Source: an uncultured bacterium
Lineage (GTDB): Bacteria > Actinomycetota > Actinomycetes > S36-B12 > CAIYMF01
Length of the DNA: 49,229 bases
Assembly (NCBI GenBank): GCA_903826575.1
Contig: CAIKEU010000098.1
Location: forward strand, 1 to 49,229
Reading direction: 5' to 3'
Below the pieces are notes generated by a model, which had not been told where the DNA came from, did no database searches, and was given only the letters and a program-made list of their open reading frames with translations. The position numbers and the translations under genes are program-made. Shown here in pieces: positions 33,962-49,229 of the stretch (position 1 is its first letter; the number at the start of each line of letters is the position of its first letter).

Positions 33962-35422
33962 CTAAGCGGAGTAGTCCGAGCCGATCACCAGCGTGATTTG
34001 TGACTTCGACATGCCCGGTAGCGGCTTGTGCGTCAGTGACGCTTGCGGAACGTCCCTGCGCATGGTGCCTGATGCTGTGCGCGGCCCCGGCGAGTAGACG
34101 ACGGTTTGTGCCGATGGACCCTTGGCGTAGTTACCAACAGACAAGATCTTCCAGCCCTTTGCACGCAGATCATCGGCGACCTTCGCGGCAAGCCCGCTCG
34201 TACCCGAACCGTTGAGTACAACAACCGGAACGCTGCGGTCACCGGCAACGACGGGAGCCGCCGATGATGCGTCGGGGGTCGGAACTACCGGAGCGGACGT
34301 GGGGATTGTTGGGACGATCGAGATAACCGGGGTCGGAACAACTGGGACCGGCGGCACGATCGGTGGAGTGGGGACCGTAGAAGCCGCAGGCTGATTCGTC
34401 GGAGCGACAACTACGTTGGTGTCAATGTTGCTGTTTTGGAAGTGAGTCCAACCAGCAATGAGAGCCATAATCGCCACGGCACCAAGGGCAATCGGCACGA
34501 GTAGCTTTCCCCAACGCGACGGAGTTCCGCCGACAGGGACGATACCTTCGCCTTTGACGAATGGCGGTTCGACGTACCACGCATCGCCTGGGGCTTCGGC
34601 GGCGTAATCAGGGATCTGCCCAGTCGAAGTCGACGGCGCGGAATCCGCGTAATAGGACTCGAATTGGGAAGTGTGATCTAGCGCCGGGCTGGCGGCATCC
34701 ATCGTCTGAACTGATTCCTCGAGCCCCAGAGAGTTGTCGGCCGGCGCCACAGCCTCACGCGGCGCAAAAATCGACGGATCGAAATCCTGATGAACCGCAG
34801 CCGCGACGACAGGAACGGCAGCAACGAAAGTATCCGCATCGTCGAACTCGACGGGCGCATACATGGGCCGCTCGAACACCGGGCGTTCGTCGATGGGCCG
34901 CTCAACAACCTGCTCAACGCCGGGCTCGGCGGACGTTGCATGGTAAATCGCGGTGTCATAGGAAACCGCTGGAATCATTGGAGCTTCGGGCGCGACAGGT
35001 TCGGGTATCTCAACCCCATGCTCAGCAGCAAGGCTTGCAGCAATCGGATCGACGTAGTTCGGCGTGACGTGGTGTGACGTAACGGTCACATGCTCGACGC
35101 GCATCGGCGGCGCGGAGTCAAACCCATCCTGCTCGCGCAGCTGCGAGACGTCGATTGCCCCCGTTTCAAACCACGTGCGATCAAAGAACGAATCAGCATC
35201 CGAGGACGGGTAAGACACGGGCACCACGACGGGAGCTGGCTCAGCCTCAAGCGGTGGCGCATCCATAAACAACGGCGTCTCTCGCTGGGCCTTCACCGCA
35301 TCAGGGAGGGTGTCGAAGCGCTGGGCAAGTGTGTCCGTCTGCCAATCGACAGACGGATCCATTGACAGGTCAGGCTCTGCCACACGCGGAATTGCTCCGG
35401 TGTCGTGAATATCTGTGCTCAC
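33962..35422 (-). CDS. Membrane protein with LytR_C domain, VirR-like
   Basis: A 486-residue protein. Residues 1-310 are a long acidic, proline-rich cytoplasmic region (many PVF/ERPM and AP repeats). A single transmembrane helix at about 313-332 (LLVPIALGAVAIMALIAGW) is followed by a Pro/Val/Thr linker with repeated VVPTP motifs. A C-terminal LytR_C domain (VPVVVLNGSGTSGLAAKVADDL and on) completes the protein on the outside. The architecture and the DUF3263 neighbour match Rv0431 (VirR), which affects cell-wall integrity and vesicle release in mycobacteria, although the cytoplasmic part is much longer here. Start GTG at 35422 with a G-rich ribosome site. Confidence 0.85.
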   Translation of the reverse strand: MSTDIHDTGAIPRVAEPDLSMDPSVDWQTDTLAQRFDTLPDAVKAQRETPLFMDAPPLEAEPAPVVVPVSYPSSDADSFFDRTWFETGAIDVSQLREQDGFDSAPPMRVEHVTVTSHHVTPNYVDPIAASLAAEHGVEIPEPVAPEAPMIPAVSYDTAIYHATSAEPGVEQVVERPIDERPVFERPMYAPVEFDDADTFVAAVPVVAAAVHQDFDPSIFAPREAVAPADNSLGLEESVQTMDAASPALDHTSQFESYYADSAPSTSTGQIPDYAAEAPGDAWYVEPPFVKGEGIVPVGGTPSRWGKLLVPIALGAVAIMALIAGWTHFQNSNIDTNVVVAPTNQPAASTVPTPPIVPPVPVVPTPVISIVPTIPTSAPVVPTPDASSAAPVVAGDRSVPVVVLNGSGTSGLAAKVADDLRAKGWKILSVGNYAKGPSAQTVVYSPGPRTASGTMRRDVPQASLTHKPLPGMSKSQITLVIGSDYSA

Positions 35423-36303: not shown

Positions 36304-37212
36304 CTAACTTCCGTCCCTCTCGATCTCCTCAGCAAATTCGCCAGATTTAATCCCACTCGCGGACGTATTCGTCGTGGCCGTAAGCGCCGCGAGCGCCGTT
36401 TCAATACGAGCGAGGCGGGTTTCAATGTCACCCATCGAGACCTCCGTCTCCTCAGCTGCGACTGCATTGGCGGGGCCGCTGACAAACCTGGACGCGATGG
36501 TCGCAGTAACGATGGAGATGGTGGCCAAACCGGTGAGTATGACGATCGTCGCCGCCACGCGCCCGCCGGTAGTCACTGGCGTGTAGTCACCGTAGCCAAC
36601 CGTGGCGATGGTGCACACTGCCCACCACAGCGCTTGGCCATAATTCTTAATATTCGCCTGAGGGCTCTGTTTTTCGAATGCCAGCACAATGATGGCGCCG
36701 AAGGTGATCACCAGAATGGTCAGGTAGAGCGAATAAAGAGAGAGCCGGTTACGCAGTTGGGCTGGGGACCGAGCGAGGCGCACAACTACATAGCCGATAA
36801 GGACGACGCGAAGCGGCGGCACAACGACGGCCAAAATGAGTAGCCAGTGACGGTGTAGGAACGTGCGTCGCTCGCCATCGAACACCCATCGCAGGATGAG
36901 GTCAGCCACGAAACCGAGCCAACCGATCACGAAAATCGTGTCGCCCTCAGCGGTGTCGAATTCACTGCCGAACTTGAGGATCATGCCGACGAGGATGAAC
37001 ATCCCGAACATGAAGATGGGCAGGCGAGAAATTCGGTCGTAGGCGTCGAGCTTGGACTCCCCCTCGCGTCGACCGAGAATCAGCTCACGTCGCCCACGCG
37101 CGCGCTGCCGTTCGCCTTCCAAAACCTCGAGCTGTTCTTCGATGTCGTGGGTTAGGCGATTAGCAGGTGAGGCGTTCGTCTCCGGGTCGTCAGGTGGATC
37201 GGAGTGAATCAC
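36304..37212 (-). CDS. Voltage-gated-like potassium channel
   Basis: A 302-residue ion channel. After an acidic and basic cytoplasmic head (1-62) come about six transmembrane segments: 64-80, 92-110, 122-143, 160-180, then the pore helix and selectivity filter T204-V-G-Y-G-D209 and the inner helix 215-236. The fourth segment region (PLRVVLIGYVVVRLARSPAQLRNR) carries spaced Arg residues as in voltage sensors. The C-terminus (MGDIETRLARIETALAALTAT) is a short coiled coil likely to hold the tetramer together. It conducts K+ across the cytoplasmic membrane. GTG at 37212 is directly preceded by AGGAGA. Confidence 0.9.
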   Translation of the reverse strand: MIHSDPPDDPETNASPANRLTHDIEEQLEVLEGERQRARGRRELILGRREGESKLDAYDRISRLPIFMFGMFILVGMILKFGSEFDTAEGDTIFVIGWLGFVADLILRWVFDGERRTFLHRHWLLILAVVVPPLRVVLIGYVVVRLARSPAQLRNRLSLYSLYLTILVITFGAIIVLAFEKQSPQANIKNYGQALWWAVCTIATVGYGDYTPVTTGGRVAATIVILTGLATISIVTATIASRFVSGPANAVAAEETEVSMGDIETRLARIETALAALTATTNTSASGIKSGEFAEEIERDGS

Positions 37213-38036: not shown

Positions 38037-38246
38037 CTAGGGGTGCGGGAAGATCGTTTCAATTCGTGGGCCTTGCGTTAACCAAAAGACCTTGTAGGGG
38101 AAGTGCCCCTGAACGGCGAGCCGTAACATGACGCCGTCGTTCGTGGTGATTGCCGATGAACGCATGCGGGCGTGATTTGGTAGACGAAAGATGAGGTCGC
38201 ACGTGTCGAGGATCGCGTTGTAAAGAGCAGGATCTGGCCCGGCTAC
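38037..38246 (-). pseudogene. Broken ORF downstream of vapC
   Basis: Right after the vapC stop, in another frame, 69 codons read as convincing protein: GPDPALYNAILDTC, then FRLPNHARM, SSAITTNDGVMLRLAVQGH and PYKVFWLTQGPRIETIFPHP before a TAG. There is no ATG, GTG or TTG near its beginning and a TAG lies immediately upstream in frame, so the 5' end is missing. It looks like the remnant of a small accessory protein of unrecognised family. Translation from an unusual codon or re-initiation after vapC is a less likely alternative. The rest of the gap between here and 37965 shows nothing. Confidence 0.5.
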
Positions 38247-38659
38247 CTAAACGAGAGAACCTTGACGCGCAGATCCAACGTTTCCCAGTAGAGATCGCCA
38301 CCCGTAATTGGCAAGTCGAGCCGCTCTGCCACAGCGATGCACAGTCCATCACCCAACGACAGCGAACCCGCGGGACTCGAAGCCGATTTACTCGCGGCGA
38401 TCAATTCAGACGCCCGAATCGCGTCTTGAGTGAACACTGGCTCGACTTGCGCACCCATCGTCATGAAGGCGCCAGCCAACTCAGACGCCGCAAGCCCATG
38501 CCCACGTAGCCGAGCGATGTAAAGCACCTCCGCTAGACCTGAGGATGGAACCACGGCAACGGGAAGCAGTTTGTCGACCAGTGCCTTCGCCGGCCGTCCC
38601 AGAATCCATTCGAGAGCGGCCGACGCGTCCAGGACGATCCGCCGCTCGAGGCCATTCAC
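38243..38659 (-). CDS. vapC: VapC-type PIN-domain toxin
   Basis: A 138-residue PIN-domain ribonuclease. The four acidic residues that hold the metal ions are in place: D11 (VLDASAALEW), E44 (SSGLAEVLY), D104 (SLGDGLCIA) and D122 (ITGGDLYWE). VapC toxins cleave tRNA or rRNA sites when freed from VapB. Its GTG start overlaps the antitoxin stop (GTGA), the normal order for vapBC operons. Confidence 0.9.
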   Translation of the reverse strand: MNGLERRIVLDASAALEWILGRPAKALVDKLLPVAVVPSSGLAEVLYIARLRGHGLAASELAGAFMTMGAQVEPVFTQDAIRASELIAASKSASSPAGSLSLGDGLCIAVAERLDLPITGGDLYWETLDLRVKVLSFR

Positions 38660-38979
38660 AGCCCAAGTTCGGCGAGTAGCCGCTCGCCAGCAGCCTCGTC
38701 GAATGGAGTCGCCACTCTGCGCGCGATGGCCTCAAGCGCGATTTCACCATCCGCCGACCGAGCGGCGGCTACGTCCGCAACCGAATCGCCTTCGACGCCT
38801 GGTGCGGCATCCCACACCCGAGCACGCACAGATGCAGGCGTCTCAAGTATGAGACGACCCAACTCGTCGACATGACCGACAAGATCACTTCCTATGGTGA
38901 TCCCGGCCGCATCCCGAAGTGCAGCCGGCAGCACAATCCGATTCTTCGGACCAACGCGCAGTGTCACGAGATCTCCCAT
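38656..38979 (-). CDS. vapB: VapB-type antitoxin with AbrB/MazE-like domain
   Basis: A 107-residue protein. Residues 5-45 are a SpoVT-AbrB/MazE swapped-hairpin DNA-binding domain (TLRVGPKNRIVLPAALRDAAGI, then VGHVDELGRLILE). The helical C-terminus (VAAARSADGEIALEAIARR, PFDEAAGERLLAELGL) would wrap around VapC. TACAAT lies seven bases before the ATG, so the transcript is probably leaderless, and an inverted repeat covers this promoter. Confidence 0.88.
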   Translation of the reverse strand: MGDLVTLRVGPKNRIVLPAALRDAAGITIGSDLVGHVDELGRLILETPASVRARVWDAAPGVEGDSVADVAAARSADGEIALEAIARRVATPFDEAAGERLLAELGL

Positions 38980-39075: not shown

Positions 39076-39402
39076 TTATCCACCGGAGGCGCACGTGACG
39101 CAGCGGATCGCCCAGGGATGGATTTCGAGGCGTCCCTCGGGGATTGGGCCGCCGCAGGTGTCGCACTGCCCGTACGTGCCCTCATCGAGCTTTGTGAGCG
39201 CGCGATCAACTTCGCCGAGTTGGACGAGGATCTGTTCGTGGGCGGCGACATTCGTGAGCCGTTCGACGGCCATCGCGGTGCCGTCACCGACGCGTTTGCC
39301 GAACGAAATCCCACCGGTGTCGACCGGTGCGGCGGTAAGGCCGTCGGCCCGCGCGACGAGGTCGGCGCGCTTGGCCAGAAGTTCACGTCGAGCATCCGTC
39401 AT
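39076..39402 (-). CDS. DksA/TraR-type zinc-finger protein
   Basis: A 108-residue protein with a helical N-terminal half (RRELLAKRADLVARADGL, EQILVQLGEVDRALTKLDEG) and a C-terminal C4 zinc finger C80-x-x-C83 ... C101-x-x-C104, with YGQCDTCGGPIPEGRLEIHPWA between. It belongs to the DksA/TraR family that binds the secondary channel of RNA polymerase; the coiled-coil tip acidic pair is not clear, so the precise effect on transcription is uncertain. GGGAGGG precedes the ATG at 39402. It stands alone, divergent from the secreted protein gene. Confidence 0.88.
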   Translation of the reverse strand: MTDARRELLAKRADLVARADGLTAAPVDTGGISFGKRVGDGTAMAVERLTNVAAHEQILVQLGEVDRALTKLDEGTYGQCDTCGGPIPEGRLEIHPWAIRCVTCASGG

Positions 39403-39578
39403 GCGCCCTCCCCTGATCTTTCGTTGAGTCACCGTTCACTGATTGTTTCAGCCCTTGATGATGCCCGATGCGGTTACTTCACGCCCAGTGTTCGATGTTG
39501 TGCGCCGAACGGGTGAGATAGCAGACAGTTTCGCCCTCACCCATTCAGTAGTAGGCGCAACCCTCCGACGTTCTAAGT

Positions 39579-40280: not shown

Positions 40281-40480
40281 GCTCGCCAACTAACTCCGCC
40301 GTCAAAGTCCGCCGCGGCAATAGCTGGGGAAAATCGCGCCAACTTACGGCAGAACAACCCTATGATGCGCTATCGCTCAACAGAACGAGCGATTCCGAGA
40401 CTGCCTGATGTGCTCCGCTCTGCCCCGGCTCTTTCCATAAGGATGGCCACCGGCGTGGACACTGGTTGGCATCAGCGCAG

Positions 40481-40518
40481 TTTCGTAAACTATCCTATTT
40501 GCAGGATGTTTTACGAAA
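40481..40518 (+). promoter_or_regulatory. Palindromic operator of the HTH/nucleotidyltransferase operon
   Basis: Arms TTTCGTAAACTATCC and GGATGTTTTACGAAA form a 38-base dyad with 13 of 15 positions complementary. It covers a likely minus-10 (TATCCT at 40491) with TTGGCA 19 bases upstream, and ends 14 bases before the gene start. The AT-rich dyad contrasts with its surroundings. Confidence 0.8.
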
Positions 40519-40531
40519 TGGGAGGTGCGTT

Positions 40532-41239
40532 GTGGAGTTATCTGTTTCGGAGGCTGCTGACCGCCTCCAGTTAGATCAGAGCCGCATTCGCCAGTTGGTG
40601 AACGCGGGCGACCTACCCGCTCGGAGGGCTGGCAAGGCTTGGCTCGTCGACGGCGACGCGGTCGCGTTGATGTCTCGGCGTGCGCGCCCGCACGGGCGTC
40701 CGCTGTCCGAACCACGCGCATGGGCGCTGCTCGATCTGCTGGCAGGAGGGGATGCGCCCTGGCTCGCCCCACCGGCGCGAAGCCAGGTCCGCTCGGTTGT
40801 GCGACGCATGGAGTCCCTTGGAGCAGATGAGTGGCGCGCCGCTCTTCGCAACCGAGGGCAGAAAGTTCCGGTAGGTGGACATCCGGCCGCGGTTCGTCGC
40901 CTCGTGCAGTCTCACGAGGCGGTACTCGCTGGCCCCGGCCAAGCGTCTGCCCACGGCGTCGATCTGGTGGCACTCAATGCCCGGCCGGAGGTTTACCTCG
41001 ACGCGAAAGGTTGGGCGCACCTCTCACAGTCGCACCACCTAGATGATGAGGCGTGGTCGACTGCGTCTGCAGTGGTCCGGCTGGTCCATCATGACGGCAT
41101 CATTGCGCGGCTGCGGGCTAACGAGCGTCTCCTTGCCCTTGCTATTGCCACTGACTGCCTCGATGACGCGAACCCTCGAGCGAACCACGCAGGTATGGAA
41201 CTCATAGGTGAAGCAGCCGATCGAGCATTAGGGATGTAA
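40532..41239 (+). CDS. Excisionase-like HTH protein, probable antitoxin
   Basis: A 235-residue protein. Residues 1-50 are a MerR/excisionase-type winged HTH (SVSEAADRLQLDQSRIRQLV, then GDLPARRAGKAWLVDGDAVAL). The rest is helical and probably binds the partner: RAWALLDLLAGG, RSQVRSVVRRMESLGADEWRAALRNRG, and a C-terminal half with VVRLVHHDGIIARLRANERLL. GGAGG six bases before GTG 40532 sets the start. A large dyad sits over its promoter, and the next gene, two bases downstream, encodes a nucleotidyltransferase-fold protein. This is the order of a type IV or type II-like TA operon. Confidence 0.78.
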   Translation: MELSVSEAADRLQLDQSRIRQLVNAGDLPARRAGKAWLVDGDAVALMSRRARPHGRPLSEPRAWALLDLLAGGDAPWLAPPARSQVRSVVRRMESLGADEWRAALRNRGQKVPVGGHPAAVRRLVQSHEAVLAGPGQASAHGVDLVALNARPEVYLDAKGWAHLSQSHHLDDEAWSTASAVVRLVHHDGIIARLRANERLLALAIATDCLDDANPRANHAGMELIGEAADRALGM

Positions 41240-41241
41240 AC

Positions 41242-41994
41242 GTGACGGCGGTCATCAATCTGCCCGTATTGGGCTCGCCGACGGACCAACTTTGGGAAGT
41301 ACTACTCAACCTGTCCACCAAGACCAAGTTCGTTCCCTGGATGCTCATCGGTGGACAGATGATGCTTATTCACACGCTGGAACATGGCCGCGAGCCGTTG
41401 CAGGTCAGCCAAGACGGAGACGCCATCGCCGATATCCGCGCTCGCCCCGACGCTTTGTTGGCCCTCGTTCGGATCTTAGAAAGCGAGGACTTCGAGTCCG
41501 ACGGTATGAGCCCTGATGGACGGGCTCACCGCTACAGGCACATGACATTTGACCCACCGGTTTTGGTCGATGTACTCGCTCCAGACAACGTCGGGCCGCG
41601 CGCCAACCTGACGACGACACCACCGGGAAGGACAGTCGAGGTCCCTGGTGGCACCCAAGCCCTACACCGGATTGAGGAAGTCGAGGTGGTCTTGGCCAAC
41701 GGTCGTAGTGGACTTGTTCCACGGCCCGATCTTCTCGGAGCCATCATCATCAAGGCTGCTGCCACATCGCTGGCTGAACGTCAGGATCGACACTTCAATG
41801 ACCTTGCGCTGCTGTGCTCTCTCGTTGATGAGCCGTTTGAGATGCGTGAGCAGATGGGAACCAGCGACAAACGGTGGCTCCGACGGGCCGGAGAGCTAGC
41901 ACAGGAAGACCATTACTCGTGGGCATTCATAGACCCCGCGTATCGAGCCGACGGACTGTCGGCGTTGAAGATCCTTCTTGCATCGGAAAACTGA
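41242..41994 (+). CDS. Nucleotidyltransferase-fold protein, probable toxin
   Basis: A 250-residue protein with WMLIGGQMMLIHTLEHGR (G37-G38), then VSQDGDAIADI with D58 and D60 as the acidic pair, and further FDPPVLVDVLAPDNVG as a third acidic strand. The C-terminal half has LLGAIIIKAAATSLAERQDRHFNDLALLCSLV (about residues 164-195), equivalent to the KxxAxxxRxxxHxxDLALL block of AbiEii-like proteins. It is immediately downstream of the HTH gene and shares its promoter. Toxic nucleotide transfer to RNA is the family precedent; the substrate here is unknown. The 74 bases after its stop hold no clear terminator. Confidence 0.75.
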   Translation: MTAVINLPVLGSPTDQLWEVLLNLSTKTKFVPWMLIGGQMMLIHTLEHGREPLQVSQDGDAIADIRARPDALLALVRILESEDFESDGMSPDGRAHRYRHMTFDPPVLVDVLAPDNVGPRANLTTTPPGRTVEVPGGTQALHRIEEVEVVLANGRSGLVPRPDLLGAIIIKAAATSLAERQDRHFNDLALLCSLVDEPFEMREQMGTSDKRWLRRAGELAQEDHYSWAFIDPAYRADGLSALKILLASEN

Positions 41995-42068: not shown

Positions 42069-42878
42069 TTACGGCTGGTTCGTAATGATCTGTGGCTGAG
42101 TGGGCGCTGTGCTGACGGGCACCTGAGCGCTTCGCCAACCAAGGTAGCCGCACACGGCGATCGCCGCGATGAGCGGATACAGCCACCAGGCTTTGAAGAT
42201 TGAGTTGCGCTTCTTCGACGCCTTCGCCTGCTCTTCTTCACGCTTACGCTGCTCAGTGCGGCTCAATGCCGCAGGGGCACCAGCCACCACGGCGGCCGGG
42301 GCGTACGACACGGGCGCGACGTAGGCAGGTTGTTCAGACTGGGCGTACTGCACGGGCTCGGCGTACTGCACCGCAGGCGCGTACTGCAGAGCCGGCGCTG
42401 CATATGGATCAACGGGCTGCTGCGCGTAGTGGACGGGCTCCACGTACGGGACGGGCTGCGCGTACTGAACAGGCTCTGGGTGATGCACTGGCGGCGCATA
42501 CTGCGGGGCCGGCTGTGCGTACTGCGACGGTTGCTCATACTGAACTGGCTGCACCGGTTGTTGCGCTTCGTATGGGGGCTGCGTGTACGTGTCGGCGGTG
42601 GCGTAATAGGTCTGCGTCACGGTGGGCACGACGTAGTTGTGGGCAACCTCGTAAGCCGGCGCAGTATAGGTTTGCGACGCTGGCTCAGGCTCAGCAGCAG
42701 GGACAACGGGGGCGACGGGAACAGCAGGAGCCACGGGCGCTGGTGGAGCAACATCAGCCACCGGCTGGGCGTGTGCTGGAACGTAGCCGGGCGCGGTTTG
42801 GTACGGGTATCCCGGGATTTCAGGCATCTGCGGCTGCTGCGTCATGGCGTGTGGGTCCATCCATTCGGTGGTGCTCAC
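42069..42878 (-). CDS. Pro/Gln/Tyr-repeat single-pass membrane protein
   Basis: A 269-residue protein of low complexity. Residues 20-100 are rich in Pro, Ala and Val. Residues 100-195 contain many copies of a degenerate YAQP or PVQYAQ unit. A charged stretch follows (SRTEQRKREEEQAKASKKRN), then one transmembrane helix at about 232-250 (WWLYPLIAAIAVCGYLGW) and a short outside tail. The basic segment before the helix puts the repeat region in the cytoplasm. The layout is like other actinobacterial P/Q/Y-rich membrane proteins that may condense or scaffold other proteins; no function is known. Start GTG 42878. It lies 55 bases downstream of the LPxTG gene on the same strand. Confidence 0.72.
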   Translation of the reverse strand: MSTTEWMDPHAMTQQPQMPEIPGYPYQTAPGYVPAHAQPVADVAPPAPVAPAVPVAPVVPAAEPEPASQTYTAPAYEVAHNYVVPTVTQTYYATADTYTQPPYEAQQPVQPVQYEQPSQYAQPAPQYAPPVHHPEPVQYAQPVPYVEPVHYAQQPVDPYAAPALQYAPAVQYAEPVQYAQSEQPAYVAPVSYAPAAVVAGAPAALSRTEQRKREEEQAKASKKRNSIFKAWWLYPLIAAIAVCGYLGWRSAQVPVSTAPTQPQIITNQP

Positions 42879-42933: not shown

Positions 42934-44052
42934 TTAGCTTGAAGCGTGTCGACCGAAGTACTCGCGACGACGACCCGCAATGAGCGCCCCCACGCCGAAA
43001 CCGAACGACAGGGTTGCGCCGAGGATCAGATCGATGGGGTCGCCACCCGTGTGTGGCAACTTCGTGCCACCGCCACCCGTTGATGGGATGGTGCCGCCAC
43101 CGTTATCGCCGCCACCGGAGTTGCCGCCTGAACCCGATCCGCCGGTGCCGCCCGTGCCGCCGCCTTCGCCGCCGCCGGTTCCTGATCCGCCACTGGTGTC
43201 GCTAGGAATCGTCGTGGTGATGTTGCCTCTGCTGTTGCCAGGAACGGGCGCGGGCTGCGAGATCGGGTTGTAGACGTAAAAGACGAATGAGGCGTTGTAC
43301 TTTCCGCCTTGGGCCGACATCACATACACGCTCGATGGAAGCGTCTTCGACAGAACGACGACAGTGTTCCCGTTGCCGTCCTTGTTCGTTACGAGTGCCG
43401 CGTTGAGGTTGATGTTTCCAACCGTGAAAGTAACCAGCGTGTTCGCCGGGAAGTTAGACACGATCAGGCGAATGGGCTCGCCAACCTTGATCGGGGATCC
43501 CTGCGCGACGGCTTGGCCCTCTTTATTGCCGATCGCGAGAGTGGGTGTGCCGTGAACCTTGATGGGAACGACCGTCGACGAGGCACCGGCGAAATTGAGA
43601 CCCTGAGTCGGCTGAAAGGTCGCGGTGAGATTTGCCGAGCCAGCCGAGCGAGAGTTGCTCTCAACAACGGCCTGCCCGCCAACAACATTCGCCTGAGCGA
43701 AAACTTGGCCGTCGGCCAAGAAGTTTACGATGCCCTGCGCATCAGCGGGACTGACTACTGCCCGGAATGTGGCGGGCGTGTACGTCTGAAGATCTGTACC
43801 CGGCTCGACGCTGAGGGCAATCTGCGTGGGAACGATCACGTTCTGCACTCCAGCAGCAGACGAGGGACCAGAGGTTGGCGAGGCACTCGCACTCGGGCTT
43901 GCCGACGGAGACTGAGACGGGCTTGCCGAAACCTTGGGAGTCGGTGTGGGGCTTGCACTTGCAGCGGACGCGGATGCTAGCGGCGCGAGCGACATTGCAA
44001 GGCACACGAGAGCAACAGCAACCGCTGAATGTGCAGTCCGCGCCTTCTTCAC
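42934..44052 (-). CDS. LPxTG-anchored cell-surface protein with Ig-like domain
   Basis: A 372-residue surface protein. Residues 1-30 are a signal peptide, followed by a Ser/Pro spacer with SPSASPSASASP repeats. An Ig-like (Big_3_5-type) domain lies at about 75-170 (FRAVVSPADAQGIVNFLADG, ANLTATFQPTQGLNFAG). A second beta domain (PIKVGEPIRLIVSNFPANTL) is followed by a Gly/Ser/Thr linker. The C-terminus is a complete sortase signal: L332-P-H-T-G336, a hydrophobic helix and an RRR tail. A sortase would cut after Thr and link it to peptidoglycan. GGAGGG stands before the GTG start. It is the last but one gene of the minus-strand surface locus, behind its own intergenic region. Confidence 0.9.
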   Translation of the reverse strand: MKKARTAHSAVAVALVCLAMSLAPLASASAASASPTPTPKVSASPSQSPSASPSASASPTSGPSSAAGVQNVIVPTQIALSVEPGTDLQTYTPATFRAVVSPADAQGIVNFLADGQVFAQANVVGGQAVVESNSRSAGSANLTATFQPTQGLNFAGASSTVVPIKVHGTPTLAIGNKEGQAVAQGSPIKVGEPIRLIVSNFPANTLVTFTVGNINLNAALVTNKDGNGNTVVVLSKTLPSSVYVMSAQGGKYNASFVFYVYNPISQPAPVPGNSRGNITTTIPSDTSGGSGTGGGEGGGTGGTGGSGSGGNSGGGDNGGGTIPSTGGGGTKLPHTGGDPIDLILGATLSFGFGVGALIAGRRREYFGRHASS

Positions 44053-44153
44053 GTGCCCTCCTCACTCAACGACAAGACAAACGCCACTTTTACCGACGCT
44101 CGATTCTTACTGTCTACGGTTCACTTTTAGAGCCGAATGGGTGACCGGAAAGG

Positions 44154-44226
44154 GTTACTTAGGTGAACGAAACGTGACGCTACGGTGAGTAACCACCGAC
44201 TTGCTCTGCGCAATTCGTTCACCTAA
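44154..44226. repeat. Nested inverted repeats upstream of the LPxTG gene
   Basis: TTAGGTGAACGAA (44159-44171) is matched by its perfect complement TTCGTTCACCTAA (44214-44226). Overlapping the left arm, GGTTACT (44154-44160) is matched by AGTAACC (44188-44194). The block lies about 100 bases upstream of the LPxTG gene start, between it and the terminator of the preceding gene. Confidence 0.7.
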
Positions 44227-44249
44227 TTGGAGCAATTTCTTGTGGGACA

Positions 44250-44287
44250 GCGAAGGGCCGCACACCCTTCCGTGTGCGGCCCTTCGC
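44250..44287 (-). terminator. Strong terminator hairpin
   Basis: A perfect 16-base stem, GCGAAGGGCCGCACAC and its complement, with a six-base loop. It lies 45 bases beyond the stop of the secreted Ig-like protein on the minus strand and closes that transcript before the LPxTG gene. No T run is seen. Confidence 0.82.
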
Positions 44288-44331
44288 TTGCTTAGGTGCT
44301 AGCTACGTACGTCTAACGTGCAGACAAGCGA

Positions 44332-45795
44332 CTAGCTGATCTTCTTACCGAGCGAGACAACAGCCTTGTTGTTGTAGCCGGCACGCGTCGCGCTAACAGT
44401 TACGGTAAGCGACTTACGCTTGTCCGCTGATGTCGTCCTATACGAGTTCTTCGTCGCACCCTTGATGACAACGCCGTTGCGCTTCCACTGATAGGTGTAC
44501 TTCGTTCCCGCCGGACTCCAAGTTCCATCGGTGACCTTCAGCAACTTTCCGACCTTAAGGACGCCTGAGATCACTGGCAACTTCGTGTTCTTAAAGTTCG
44601 CCTTGGCAATCAAGCCAGCCGGTGAATCGTCATACCCAGTGCCACCCGTGTTCGTGGCCGTCACCTTACAGAAGACGGGAAGACCGACCATGGAAGCCGT
44701 CAGCAGCAACTTATTCGTGGTCTTGCCTGCGATCTGGCGACCGTTGAGCCACCAAGAGTAGGCAAAGGGAGGCGTGGGGTTATTCGACCAAGTTCCGTTG
44801 ACGCACGTCAGGGTCTGATCGACAACGTGTGCACCAGTGGTGGTGACGCTCGTCTGTGAAGTCGGCGGAAGAACCGGCGTTACGACGCTGTAGATCAGGT
44901 CCGTCGACGGTGCTGACGCACCGTAGCCGGGAGCAGTAGGCGTGAAAACGGCTGTGAAGTCGTGATCGCCAGTTGTCGGCGCGAATGAGGCCGTGGTTGC
45001 GACGCCAGTTGTTCCATCAACGGGGATCGCAGTTCCCTGTGGAATTGGTACGCCGTAGTCGAAGAACGTCATCGTGCCAGCAACAACCGGGGTGGCGGTT
45101 GAACTGAGCGTGATTGCAGTTCCGGCCGTCTGGGGGCTCGCCAAGGACGGCATAGGCGCCGAGGCTGTCGTACCTAGCGACGATACGACCGGGTAAACCT
45201 GCTGCCATGTGCCGGGGTTCTGAGCATCCGCGCCGAGCTCAAATGCGATTTCCATCGTCGACCAAGTCGTCGCGTTGGGGGTTTTCGTATCCTTCACACG
45301 AAGTTGAGCGTAACCGTCATAGCCAGCGGTGTGATCCAAGACCGCCACGGAGAGGAACGAGTAAATGTTGCCATCGGTGGTTCCGTTTAGCGTGACCGTG
45401 GGGCCGGTGGCACTCGTGACCACTGAAGGTGCGCCGGGGGTCGCAACCGGGAAGACTGTCGACCCAGAGACAGTCTGCGAAGCCCACAAAGTTGAGACCT
45501 TTGTGTGATCGGGAGCGGCGATCGAAAGGATGGCCTTGATAGCTCCAACGCGGGGAGTTGTCGACGTCGCCGCGTAGATCGCACCTCCAAGGTCCTTAAG
45601 CGATCCCGACGTGACGGGCGTCCCCGAAGCGTCGTACAACGTGATCGAGCCGTTTGAGGCCGGATCAATGGCAGTGTCGCCAACATAAGCGGGTGGGCTC
45701 GTGCTTACGTAAGCAGCACTCGCTGGGTTGACACTGATGAGACTTGCTACCGCGGCACCAACTGCACCGAGGGCTACTAGGCGTGAAACTCGCAC
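44332..45795 (-). CDS. Secreted multi-domain Ig-like surface protein
   Basis: A 487-residue exported protein. Residues 1-27 are a signal peptide. Residues 45-200 are a domain shared with the next protein upstream: GSITLYDASGTPVTSGSLKDL (about 49-69), a middle with STLWASQTVSGS, then YAQLRVKDT and a W-rich end. An Ig-like domain follows (TAGTAITLSSTATPVVAGTM, TGDHDFTAVFTP). Two C-terminal repeats of about 75 residues (VNGTWSNNPTPPFAYSWWLNG and TDGTWSPAGTKYTYQWKRNG) each end in a VTATN/VTVSA strand. There is no anchor sequence, so it is probably held by other wall components or released. GGAAGGGGAAG precedes the GTG start. Confidence 0.82.
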   Translation of the reverse strand: MRVSRLVALGAVGAAVASLISVNPASAAYVSTSPPAYVGDTAIDPASNGSITLYDASGTPVTSGSLKDLGGAIYAATSTTPRVGAIKAILSIAAPDHTKVSTLWASQTVSGSTVFPVATPGAPSVVTSATGPTVTLNGTTDGNIYSFLSVAVLDHTAGYDGYAQLRVKDTKTPNATTWSTMEIAFELGADAQNPGTWQQVYPVVSSLGTTASAPMPSLASPQTAGTAITLSSTATPVVAGTMTFFDYGVPIPQGTAIPVDGTTGVATTASFAPTTGDHDFTAVFTPTAPGYGASAPSTDLIYSVVTPVLPPTSQTSVTTTGAHVVDQTLTCVNGTWSNNPTPPFAYSWWLNGRQIAGKTTNKLLLTASMVGLPVFCKVTATNTGGTGYDDSPAGLIAKANFKNTKLPVISGVLKVGKLLKVTDGTWSPAGTKYTYQWKRNGVVIKGATKNSYRTTSADKRKSLTVTVSATRAGYNNKAVVSLGKKIS

Positions 45796-45858
45796 GCGAC
45801 TTCCCCTTCCCGTTCATTCCCCCCGCGGCCTTTTGGCACGCGAGCCGTGCTCGAAAAA

Positions 45859-46797
45859 TCAAGATCCCGAGTGGGATCCTGGGTTGGAATTTGTGACTGC
45901 CCCCGCAGCCGCGGTGTTGCGTCGCACGATGTACGCGCCGATGAGCCCGCCGATCAGTGGAAGACCGATCACGGCGGCCAAGATTAGCGGCAACGAGGTG
46001 CCTGAACTCGACCCGCTCGAACTCGCGACGTTACTTCCCGCAGCGCCGGCGTCACTCGATGCCGCTTGACTTCCAGCAGACACGGTGGGACTGGCCACCG
46101 ATGCAGGGGTGGTCGACGTCGTCGGAGTAGGCGCACCCACCACGATCGCAGACGGAGTAACGCTCGGATTCGCACCATGGAAAGTCGGCGAGGCGGACGG
46201 AAGATGCGACGGGCCGAGCATGTTCACTTCGCCAGAAACAGCCTTGCCAGCGCCGCAATCGCCACCGCCGCCTTGGACCAAGGTCCAGTGGGTGCCATCA
46301 ACCTTGATGATTGCGGCGGGGTATGTCTTGCGATACGGCTGCATATTGATGTTCGTGTAGTAAACGCGGACCTGGGCGAGGCCCTGCCACAGCGGCGCAA
46401 TGCTCGTAAAGTCTATAAGCGGCAGGTCGCCGTACGTTGCTTGGACGACCGGATGCTTCGGGTTCGAGTAGCGCGCGCTACCGGTCATCTGCTTGCCATT
46501 CCACAGTCCGGGATCCACCCCCTCGCGCGGCTGAAGCACGAATGCCACTGCCTTCCCAAGGGGCATGTAATAGCCCTCGGGCGCCGGTGCTGAAGAGATG
46601 TACTTCCAGACGAAAGGAATATCAGTGATGGACCCCGACGTAACTTCCTTGTCGTTCTTATCGCAAAACGTCAGCGATCCGAGGACATTACGGTCGTTGA
46701 ACGGAATCGAGACCGAATCCGCGCGCGCTGGTATCGCAACGAAAGTCAACGCGCTCAGGCAAAGAGCTAGGACTGCCAAAACACGACGTACAAACAT
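45859..46797 (-). CDS. Membrane-anchored surface protein sharing the same N-terminal domain
   Basis: A 312-residue protein. Residues 1-26 are a signal peptide (ALTFVAIPARA). Residues 35-175 are the shared domain: LGSLTFCDKNDKEVTSGSI (39-57), PREGVDPGLWNGKQMTGSA, LAQVRVYYTN and KVDGTHWTLVQ. A Ser/Thr/Ala stalk (about 200-265) leads to a transmembrane helix (LPLILAAVIGLPLIGGLIGAYIV) and a short cytoplasmic tail beginning RRN. The family is not recognised. Its ATG at 46797 overlaps the stop of the DUF916-like gene (TGATG), so the two are made together. The frame also has a TTG one codon earlier. Confidence 0.82.
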   Translation of the reverse strand: MFVRRVLAVLALCLSALTFVAIPARADSVSIPFNDRNVLGSLTFCDKNDKEVTSGSITDIPFVWKYISSAPAPEGYYMPLGKAVAFVLQPREGVDPGLWNGKQMTGSARYSNPKHPVVQATYGDLPLIDFTSIAPLWQGLAQVRVYYTNINMQPYRKTYPAAIIKVDGTHWTLVQGGGGDCGAGKAVSGEVNMLGPSHLPSASPTFHGANPSVTPSAIVVGAPTPTTSTTPASVASPTVSAGSQAASSDAGAAGSNVASSSGSSSGTSLPLILAAVIGLPLIGGLIGAYIVRRNTAAAGAVTNSNPGSHSGS

Positions 46798-47924
46798 CAA
46801 ACTGTCCCTGGAGTGGAGTTAGCCGACCCCGCCGATACGAGATCGGGATTGGATGAAGTGCTCGAAGCATCCGGGGTCGACGTCGGCGTGCGACGCATAC
46901 GTATGAACGCTGCTCCGATCGCGGCTAGACCGAGAAGACCCGCAAGCAACGTCCATGCGATGGCCCAGAAGTTCGTCGACGCGCTGGCTACCTCTGACGC
47001 TGGATCAGCATCACCGGCTACAGCGAGCCCGCTTACCGAAACATCGGCAGTCATGTAACCAACGGGCGTTACATCAGGAACGGTGACAGATACCTTCGCC
47101 GAGTTACCGGGCAGAAGCATCGGAACGTTAGCAAGCTTCGGGGCAGAAGTTGTCGGCCCGATAAGGCCATGCACACTCACTTCTTGCTGACCGCCAAGGC
47201 GCACGTTGCCGGTATTGGTGACGGTGTACGTAACGGTGACGTTTCCCTTGCCGAACGGGTTCACGGTTCCCGCGTAGGCAGCTTGGAGATCCTTAACTTC
47301 GAGACCCGGCGTCAAAACGCCAGCCACTCGAACTCCAAGGCGAATACCAACGCGCTGCTCGAGCTTGACGTTCGTACCGCGCTCACCCGGCGTCGTTCCC
47401 TCTGAAACGAGGGACGCCACGATGCCGGCCAAATGATCACCTACGTAGGCGGTCTTTGGAATGTGCACGACAAATGGGACGTAGACCTTTTCACGTGGTG
47501 CCAAATTGACGTAACCCTTAGACCCACGCCCGCCGAAGGTGACCCAGGCAGCTGCATCTTTCGGCTTCACATAGCCGGGCTGCAACGTGAGCGAGCCGTC
47601 ATCGGCGTTGAGGCCATCGGCTGCATAGAGGTTCAGAGTCAGTGGTTGGTACGTGAGGTTAACGACAGCAACCTCGTCAGAGACCAGCCCACCCTTGGGC
47701 GACAACATGTTGTAGTTCGGGCGGCGATCGACCTGATGATTCTTGCTCGGGCCGATGCCAAAAGTGACGACGGGCTTGCCAGCGGCGTCCGTAGCCGCCG
47801 AACCGCTTGGATTCGGAGACGGAGCCGGAGAAGGGGTTGTTGACGCTGCGAGCGCAGGCGATCCGGTCAATACAATGATCGAAACGGTAGCCGCTGCGGC
47901 CAGAACCTTACTTATCCTCAACAC
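46797..47924 (-). CDS. DUF916-like WxL-interacting membrane protein
   Basis: A 375-residue protein. Signal peptide at 1-26 (ATVSIIVLTGSPALAA). The ectodomain begins VTFGIGPSKN, then SPKGGLVSDEVAVVNLTYQPLTLNLYAADGLN (about 73-104), LAPREKVYVPFVVHIPK, GDHLAGIVASLVSEG and VGIRLGVRVAG, the pattern of the DUF916 (WxL-interacting, peptidoglycan-binding) domain. A second beta domain (VTYTVTNTGNVRLGGQQEV) is followed by a transmembrane helix at about 319-341 and a Ser/Thr tail inside. In Firmicutes such proteins tether WxL proteins to the wall; the gene upstream here encodes a WxL-like protein. TACGGT six bases before GTG 47924 sets the start, rejecting 26 further codons. Confidence 0.82.
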   Translation of the reverse strand: MLRISKVLAAAATVSIIVLTGSPALAASTTPSPAPSPNPSGSAATDAAGKPVVTFGIGPSKNHQVDRRPNYNMLSPKGGLVSDEVAVVNLTYQPLTLNLYAADGLNADDGSLTLQPGYVKPKDAAAWVTFGGRGSKGYVNLAPREKVYVPFVVHIPKTAYVGDHLAGIVASLVSEGTTPGERGTNVKLEQRVGIRLGVRVAGVLTPGLEVKDLQAAYAGTVNPFGKGNVTVTYTVTNTGNVRLGGQQEVSVHGLIGPTTSAPKLANVPMLLPGNSAKVSVTVPDVTPVGYMTADVSVSGLAVAGDADPASEVASASTNFWAIAWTLLAGLLGLAAIGAAFIRMRRTPTSTPDASSTSSNPDLVSAGSANSTPGTV

Positions 47925-47930
47925 GGGTTC

Positions 47931-47936
47931 ACCGTA
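47931..47936 (-). promoter_or_regulatory. Minus-10 element before the DUF916-like gene
   Basis: TACGGT on the minus strand ends six bases before GTG 47924, so the DUF916-like gene can be transcribed as a leaderless message separate from the WxL-like gene upstream. Confidence 0.5.
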
Positions 47937-48029
47937 CCCAGCCATCTGTGGCCATAAACCAAAGTAAAGATGAACGAAAGATGACGAACGACGGGCAATC
48001 ACTCACGGCCACCCCTCCCCGTTGATCCT

Positions 48030-49229
48030 TTAACTGCCCAACACTGAGAACGTCACCGTGCCCGCATAAGTGCCATCAAGCAGGTTCGTTGGCGCCCTGA
48101 TCGTCAGAGTCGCGGCGACGACCGTCGTACCCAGACCGGAGTTGGCGTGCAGAATCGGATGTGGAGAAGATCCACCAAGACCGAGCGATCCTGGGTCCGT
48201 CACCTGAACATGGGCTGCAGATGGGTTGTTAAAGCCGGTGAAGTTTTGGCCCGCCGTCGATGTGCCCGGGGTTTGCGATCCGAGGAACGTATTCGGGGTG
48301 GCGTTAGTACTGACCAGAGACGTCACATTCCACCCGACGTTTTGCGCACTAATCGATTGATTAGCATTGGGCGCCGCCACACCCACCTTGTTCAGGTTCG
48401 TAGAGATCAAGGACAACGTATAAGGCAGGTTTCCGGGACGAGTGTCCGCCATCGAAAGGCCAGTGATGTTGAGAGACGACGTGTACTCATCCGCGGTGGA
48501 ATTCAGGGTCAGAGCCGGCAGCAGCAACGGGGTGTTGATCGTCAAGGCGGTGGAGAGATCCAAGGTTCCTGCCGCAATCGACGTCTGAATGTTCTGAGGA
48601 TCACCTATTAGGCCGGTGATTACATTAAACGTCGCGGCGCTGCTTGATGACGCGCAAAACGACCCGAGCCCGCCATAGGCAGCCACGATCGTGTGCGCGG
48701 TCCCTGGGCTGGATGAACTAGTCAGACCCGAGAGGTTGATCGTGACAGCACCGGTCGAGCCAGCGGTGAGGGTTCCTGTCGCGTTGGCGGACGATGACCC
48801 ATCCACGTAGAACGCCACGGTACCCGTGGCAGGAGCCGCGCTCGTTGGCGTGACAACAGCGGTCGCCGTCAGCACATCCGTCGAGCCGAGCGTGACAGTT
48901 GCCTGGCTTAATGTGAGCGCGGTCGCAGGGTAAATCGCCGGCACGCGCTGAACCGTCAAGCTTGACGCACTCGAGGTGCCCGAGCCGAACAGACCCACCG
49001 GGGTGAAAGCAGCGGTGATGCTGTGAGAAACATCCGAGCCACCGGCGCAAGTGGATGTCGTATTCGTGAACATTGACGTTAGCGTGGCAACACCAGTGGT
49101 GCTGTTGTAGGTGGCTGCACCGAGATCGGTTGAGCCATCGAAGAAGTGAACAGAACCAGTCGCGCTCGAAGGCGTGACGGTCGAGGTAAGAGTCACGCTG
49201 TCACCGTTGGTGGCTGGTGAAACTGGTGA
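48030..49229 (-). CDS. WxL-like secreted surface protein, N-terminus beyond the window
   Basis: The frame is open to the last base, so the gene starts outside. The visible 399 residues hold two Ig-like Big_3_5-type domains: one with TLTSTVTPSSATGSVHFFDG and SHSITAAFTPVG, one with LTATAVVTPTSAAPATGTVAFYVDG and HTIVAAYGGLG. A C-terminal domain of about 190 residues follows with GLSMADTRPGNLPYTLSL and the ending NLLDGTYAGTVTFSVLG. The ADTR plus DGTYxGTVTF pattern is that of WxL cell-wall-binding domains, although the usual W of the first WxL motif is replaced here (NLPYTLS). It is upstream of the DUF916-like gene on the same strand, as in WxL clusters. Confidence 0.78.
   Translation of the reverse strand, partial: SPVSPATNGDSVTLTSTVTPSSATGSVHFFDGSTDLGAATYNSTTGVATLTSMFTNTTSTCAGGSDVSHSITAAFTPVGLFGSGTSSASSLTVQRVPAIYPATALTLSQATVTLGSTDVLTATAVVTPTSAAPATGTVAFYVDGSSSANATGTLTAGSTGAVTINLSGLTSSSSPGTAHTIVAAYGGLGSFCASSSSAATFNVITGLIGDPQNIQTSIAAGTLDLSTALTINTPLLLPALTLNSTADEYTSSLNITGLSMADTRPGNLPYTLSLISTNLNKVGVAAPNANQSISAQNVGWNVTSLVSTNATPNTFLGSQTPGTSTAGQNFTGFNNPSAAHVQVTDPGSLGLGGSSPHPILHANSGLGTTVVAATLTIRAPTNLLDGTYAGTVTFSVLGS

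Follow-up and report, generated by a model that had tools for sequence, protein, structure and literature searches.

The closest described systems to the locus reported here are the csc/WxL clusters of the Lactobacillales and Bacillales (CscA–D), in which a membrane-anchored DUF916 protein, WxL-like proteins with variable N-termini, and an LPxTG protein, all of them secreted, are encoded in one cluster and are proposed to form a nutrient-controlled complex for nutrient acquisition (PMC1534035, PMC10599100). Specifically, the csc/WxL clusters have been proposed as carbon-acquisition complexes with catabolite-responsive element (CRE) sites (PMC1534035), a role in retaining WxL domains at the wall has been proposed for WxLIP (PMC10599100), and more than 91% of known WxL domains are Firmicute (PMC9772566). 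Such clusters have been discussed mainly as host-binding or carbohydrate systems, and have been described as Firmicute. The present study concerns a cluster of this type at positions 42,934–49,229 of a 49,229-nucleotide stretch of actinomycete DNA (the window), which is the entire contig CAIKEU010000098.1 (here G000:C98) of a 3.0-Mb draft genome, G000, in 106 contigs. Our analysis suggests that the window probably carries one half of a phosphate-regulated locus, namely the half for the cell surface, whose products would form a wall platform for a second, divergent Pst importer. The linkage to Pst genes is well supported; the function is what we infer from it.

Linkage of the WxL-type cluster to a Pst importer

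The order of the five genes is kept in eight relatives, and therefore the cluster is not a product of chance. In relatives it continues upstream on the same strand with g12, encoding a secreted PBP_like_2 protein; a gene for a sortase-fold protein; g10, encoding a protein of about 900 residues with a C-terminal transmembrane (TM) helix and a faint PstS match; pstS; two permease genes; and pstB. Pst genes, g10 and/or the sortase-like gene, and g12 lie directly upstream of the WxL-like cluster in five genomes (G006, G017, G013, G010, and G003), and PstS, two permeases, and the ATPase are encoded in one locus in G004, G006, G017, G005, and G003, the same block being divided over contig ends in G004 and G005. 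In the sister genome G004, whose WxLIP-like protein is 86% identical to that of the window, contig C28 spans the genes from pstB through a tandem pair of WxL-like genes, and C62 starts with the WxLIP-like gene. In G000 itself, contig C80 starts inside a pstS of the locus type, followed by pstA, pstC, and pstB. A search of the contigs of G000 found neither the sortase-like protein nor g12, as expected if both lie between C80 and C98, and an assembly gap at this point would be the simplest reading. A plasmid search with g10 gave no match.

This locus has much in common with an ordinary Pst operon (pstS-C-A-B), including the ATPase, the two permeases, a PstS of the PBP_like_2/TIGR00975 type, and PHO-box-like repeats upstream. 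It differs in the C-terminal TM helix of its PstS, in the two extra PstS-like surface proteins, in the cluster of wall proteins, and in the presence of an ordinary PstS elsewhere in the genome (on C104 in G000). This last feature, together with an altered binding loop in the locus PstS and with scores of g10 and g12 far below the PstS cut-offs, would suit an importer whose ligand is not phosphate but another oxyanion or an organophosphate caught by the surface proteins. We consider this unlikely, because the locus PstS matches TIGR00975 with an expect value (E) of 3.5e-50, even though it falls below the family cut-off, because the loop RSDGSGT is kept in families f71 and f85, and because PHO-box-like sites accompany the genes.

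The linkage is not restricted to close relatives. Among 40 DUF916-like loci that were fetched, 12 hold Pst genes, g10, or pstB plus a sortase-like gene, with changed gene orders (L107, L108, L109, L113, L120, L121, L126, L128, L130, L133, L135, and L136); L118 holds a sortase-like gene, and several other DUF916-like loci end with short contigs. Pst-linked copies cluster in the WxLIP tree, with 7 label changes as compared with 15.8 for shuffled labels (0 of 500 shuffles as low), and the main group (n = 24) contains 17 linked, 6 undetermined, and 1 unlinked copy, its support of 92/89 not being decisive. In a search with the sortase-like family, 15 further places were fetched from among the strong matches (E below 1e-53), and Pst, g10, or g12 genes were found nearby in all but one (L155, at a contig end). 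Some of the Pst/sortase-like loci carry no WxLIP-like gene, and thus, judged by gene content, the core of the system comprises Pst, the sortase-like protein, and g10/g12, with WxL/WxLIP a frequent extra that is not essential to this core. In a literature search in which most subscription journals were out of reach, we found no publication tying DUF916 or a dead sortase to Pst. As a separate observation, Pst genes and a divergent sortase-like protein share one contig (L081, G022:C9) in a 1.5-Mb genome of another family, in which WxLIP was not detected.

PHO-box-like repeats upstream of the genes

The PHO box of Streptomyces coelicolor is GTTCACC (PMC4415409). The search motif, paired GTTCAYC units with a spacing of 11 or 22 bp, was fixed beforehand from this box. 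The strict pattern has a sole match in the window (0.00 expected), a direct repeat upstream of the LPxTG gene that is conserved in sister genome G004. At a score of at least 13/14, repeats precede the operon head in all 7 loci, g12 in 5 of 9, and the LPxTG gene in all 3 regions scanned, as compared with 4 matches in 467 kb of other DNA and none in window positions 1–42,000. A looser threshold (12/14) was dropped because it gave four matches in unrelated window DNA, where 13/14 gave none.

A sortase fold without catalytic residues

The sortase-like protein matches PF04203 above the cut-off (E = 6e-11) and, like class E and D sortases, has an N-terminal TM helix. It differs from them in having two extra C-terminal TM helices, making it a 3-TM protein; in its score of 52.8 bits, far short of the class E cut-off of 160 bits; and in its active site. 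In an alignment with canonical sortases from the same group, 15 of 15 copies lack the catalytic His (replaced by Gly in GRxxxFGxPF) and the catalytic Cys (LTLVTA and similar), and the further readable copies at the 15 additional loci likewise lack both residues. Since these residues are absent, the locus-linked protein is, on its sequence, not filed as a sortase, and this pseudoenzyme may have a binding or assembly role. The family search was two-peaked: 28 places matched to the model end with E below 1e-53, and ordinary sortases followed at 1e-25 or weaker. Attachment of the LPxTG protein by the locus-linked sortase-like protein was considered and dropped, as the catalytic residues are gone; one strong sortase match lies elsewhere in G000, on C13. 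A dead sortase fold may bind LPxTG-like or wall ligands without cleaving them, and its conservation across many families, with Pst genes alongside wherever the flanks allow, makes it an oddity open to test.

A membrane-bound sortase-fold pseudoenzyme could also organize the wall. Together with the PHO-box-like repeats and with the fact that every product of the five-gene cluster is an envelope protein, this would fit a module that restructures the envelope during phosphate starvation, with the Pst genes merely co-regulated. Such a role for the locus appears improbable: three PstS-like proteins and a full ATP-binding cassette (ABC) importer are better explained by transport, and no wall-synthesis or hydrolase domain was seen in the locus proteins.

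Relationship of the cluster to WxL and WxLIP proteins

A preliminary description, made from the window sequence alone, had recognized proteins of the WxL-like, DUF916-like, and LPxTG types together on the minus strand, two more secreted proteins between them, and Ig-like (immunoglobulin-like) domains in the WxL-like and LPxTG members. All of this is borne out by the five open reading frames, by profile matches, and by an LPHTG motif followed by a TM helix. A scan of the five proteins with Pfam and NCBIfam gave weak or Ig matches only, and found no polysaccharide-degrading domain in any of them.

The WxL-like protein consists of Big_3_5 Ig-like repeats (Pfam, E = 2.3e-16) followed by a C-terminal WxL-like domain; full-length orthologues (e.g., L020, 648 residues) begin with a signal peptide and an N-terminal domain common to the 45859 and 44332 products. 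The window protein has no match to Pfam WxL (PF13731), and this family matches 2 of 8 orthologues (best E = 2.4e-4). Homology emerges from hhalign comparisons with four Pfam-recognized WxL domains from other genomes of the same phylum, with E = 1.3e-7 for an alignment of 9 sequences and E = 4.4e-15 (probability 98.4) for one of 28, controls giving E of about 0.5. An hmmsearch of the alignment against PDB sequences found no match. The preliminary description had the first Trp missing, and Tyr indeed stands there; it did not record that the second is likewise replaced (VTFSV), so that both are missing, and the W-x-L motif is absent from all 399 readable residues. The first Trp (DTRAGxxxWxL) is kept in most relatives, with WTL at this position in the orthologues of G013 and G016; the second is kept in none of the relatives listed. 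By the defining Trp motifs, therefore, the window domain is a homologue of WxL and not a standard WxL domain, and "WxL-type variant" is the most fitting name for the cluster. The domain was modeled as an Ig/pilin-like β-sandwich with a predicted local distance difference test score (pLDDT) of 65. Foldseek returned nothing under E = 1e-3 for this model and no WxL structure, and a kinship with pilin-type Ig folds (Z about 8) lay within the background of the tool, so no claim is based on it. One WxL-like gene is present in the window before the contig ends, as compared with the tandem pair at the end of C28 in G004. The second paralogue of that pair (L088, G004:C28:27000-30864) carries N-terminal repeats, GGNYGFNYPxGxAxDGxHLWxTN, that look propeller-like by eye.

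The WxLIP-like protein has a signal-peptide-like start and matches DUF916 (Pfam WxLIP_PGBD) with E = 0.0014, under the Pfam cut-off. DUF916 matches were obtained for 9 of 11 orthologues (best E = 2.5e-12), and the family profile matches the solved Enterococcus faecium EfmWxLIP1 (E = 3.9e-5). A Q-V-D-R-x3-Y motif just before or within the DUF916 region resembles the published NQIDKxxxYFDLK. Thus, both the 48030 and the 46797 product have the profile relationships that the preliminary description had predicted for them. DUF3324 (HBD), also named there, has no Pfam match in the WxLIP-like protein; the region at its position gives weak matches to other Ig-like families (CARDB, DUF7507). DUF916-like proteins were found in 43 of 118 genomes sampled from the class, often adjoining WxL-like proteins, and because they are so common, finding WxL/DUF916 in an actinobacterium is no novelty in itself; the annotation "DUF916 domain-containing protein" is already present in Clavibacter and Cellulosimicrobium. 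In one genome (G020, L027 8965-12143), a DUF916-like gene adjoins the gene of an HtaA (heme-binding) domain protein, and on account of this neighbor WxLIP-like proteins may serve other nutrients too.

The remaining members are tied to the WxL-like protein by shared domains. The P3 domain recurs in the Ig-like repeat protein and in full-length WxL-like proteins (hhalign E = 2e-13 and 2e-9; 2e-71 over a longer stretch with Ig repeats), and this region has no Pfam match in any of the three. Its model (pLDDT 91) is a β-sandwich with no confident match in the PDB, which does not establish a new fold. The LPxTG protein matches the Big_3_5 region of the WxL-like protein (hhalign E = 4.5e-6), and its motif varies in relatives between LPHTG, LAHTG, LSHTG, and LPRTG.

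The similarity to WxL/WxLIP and the Ig-like repeats could also indicate a carbohydrate or adhesion platform of the csc type, with glycans or surfaces as the ligands of the WxL-like, WxLIP-like, and Ig-like proteins and with an incidental Pst neighborhood, and an adhesion or polymer-binding complex was indeed the function first suggested for this DNA. Firmicute WxL domains are reported to bind peptidoglycan (PMC10599100), sister genome G004 encodes an additional WxL-like paralogue whose N-terminus is rich in repeats, and many WxLIP-like loci of the class are not Pst linked. This explanation nevertheless seems doubtful, as linkage to Pst reappears in many families, in rearranged gene orders, and tracks the WxLIP tree, PHO-box-like sites are present, and a polysaccharide-degrading domain is lacking from the five proteins. 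Because Pst genes, PHO-box-like sites, and a dead sortase fold belong to the locus of which the cluster is the downstream half, the arrangement supports nutrient (phosphate) capture better than adhesion; of the original suggestion, the parallel with WxL clusters holds.

A model for phosphate capture at the cell wall

A WxL scaffold joined with a Pst importer and PHO-box-like sites suggests the capture of phosphate, and the locus is best read as the phosphate counterpart of the csc/WxL clusters. The encoded set would comprise PstB, PstC, and PstA, a membrane-anchored PstS, g10, the sortase-fold pseudoenzyme, g12, and the WxL-like, WxLIP-like, P3, Ig-like, and LPxTG proteins. A regulator of the PhoP/RegX3 type would switch the locus on when phosphate is limiting. 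The membrane-anchored WxLIP-like protein would retain the WxL-like proteins at the wall, in line with what has been proposed for Firmicutes, and the Ig-like and P3-domain proteins, together with a sortase-attached LPxTG protein, would carry this platform through the wall, forming a physical complex. PstS-like proteins would then catch phosphate or a phosphorylated ligand at the wall and hand it over to the importer. As compared with csc/WxL clusters, the window lacks both Trp residues and a Pfam match to DUF3324, has added P3-domain proteins, and encodes an LPxTG protein of 372 residues where theirs are very small (90–140 residues); and whereas csc/WxL clusters have CRE sites, this locus has PHO-box-like sites and is joined to Pst genes and the gene of a sortase-fold pseudoenzyme. 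More tentatively, the Actinomycetes may possess an apparatus for phosphate acquisition of a class not described before, in which Pst, three PstS-like proteins, a 3-TM pseudosortase, a β-sandwich domain outside Pfam, and an optional WxL/WxLIP platform would be placed under Pho control and would catch phosphate at the cell wall.

Several observations weigh against a phosphate-regulated platform. The Trp residues that define the Firmicute WxL domain are missing, which may alter how the domain binds WxLIP and the wall. WxL/WxLIP is absent from six Pst/pseudosortase loci (L150, L151, L152, L154, L156, and L159), and many WxLIP-like loci stand apart from Pst. At the operon head, the prevailing spacing of the PHO-like pairs is 22 bp, with a degenerate middle unit, as compared with the textbook 11 bp, and the relatives scanned for these repeats are not independent. 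The join between C80 and C98 is inferred, not sequenced. Finally, the Arg of the RSDGSGT loop is replaced in PstS of the window lineage (HxEGSGST), as judged against one good reference only.

The Pst importer and PHO-box-like sites beside WxL in actinobacteria suggest that WxL/WxLIP is a general nutrient-capture scaffold with varying cargo, and phosphate limitation offers an experimental handle on WxL complexes of unknown function.

Layout of the window locus and neighboring genes

The features of the cluster are collected in Table 1. The end of the WxLIP-like gene, with its stop, shares 4 bases with the P3 gene, and the C-terminus of the Ig-like repeat protein has neither a TM helix nor an LPxTG motif. 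The 16-bp inverted repeat 3′ of its gene, together with the LPxTG gene's own upstream region with a PHO-box-like repeat, indicates that the LPxTG gene is probably a separate transcription unit.

Table 1. Coordinates of the WxL-type cluster and its features in the window (KD, Kyte–Doolittle)
Feature	Position	Strand	Remarks
WxL-like surface protein gene	48030..49229	-	399 residues readable; 5′ end cut by contig end
WxL-like domain	48030..48632	-	200 residues; neither Trp present
Position of first WxL motif, DTRPGNLPYTL	48414..48446	-	Tyr in place of Trp
WxLIP (DUF916)-like protein	46797..48002	-	401 residues; signal peptide; C-terminal TM helix
DUF916/WxLIP_PGBD region	47418..47741	-	
C-terminal TM helix of WxLIP-like protein	46902..46958	-	residues 349-367; KD 2.04
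P3, secreted protein	45859..46800	-	313 residues; C-terminal TM helix and RR
P3 domain	46240..46734	-	common to N-termini of 44332 product and full-length WxL-like proteins
Secreted Ig-like repeat protein	44332..45795	-	487 residues; N-terminal domain as in P3
Possible terminator, 16-bp inverted repeat	44250..44287	-	3′ of 44332 gene; no T run
PHO-box-like direct repeat, GTTCACC-N15-GGTCACC	44140..44168	-	upstream of LPxTG gene
LPxTG protein	42934..44052	-	372 residues; Ig-like domain; C-terminal TM helix
LPHTG motif of LPxTG protein	43045-43059	-	
Pro/Gln-rich syntenic neighbor protein	42069..42878	-	one likely TM helix near C-terminus

The Pro/Gln-rich neighbor has no Pfam match; it adjoins the cluster also in L019, L020, and L024, and possibly belongs to the locus. 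Beyond it, positions 40,466–41,994 (plus strand) hold what looks like a two-gene unit, an HTH_17 protein followed by a protein without a Pfam match, and on the minus strand a small protein with a DksA/TraR zinc finger is encoded at 39,076–39,432. At 38,243–38,979 (minus strand), a PIN-domain gene and a MazE/AbrB-type antitoxin gene, overlapping by 4 bases, form a VapBC-like toxin–antitoxin pair. Farther away on the minus strand are genes for a LytR_C protein (33,962–35,422) and an Ion_trans_2 ion channel (36,304–37,212), the latter being syntenic with the cluster in several relatives.
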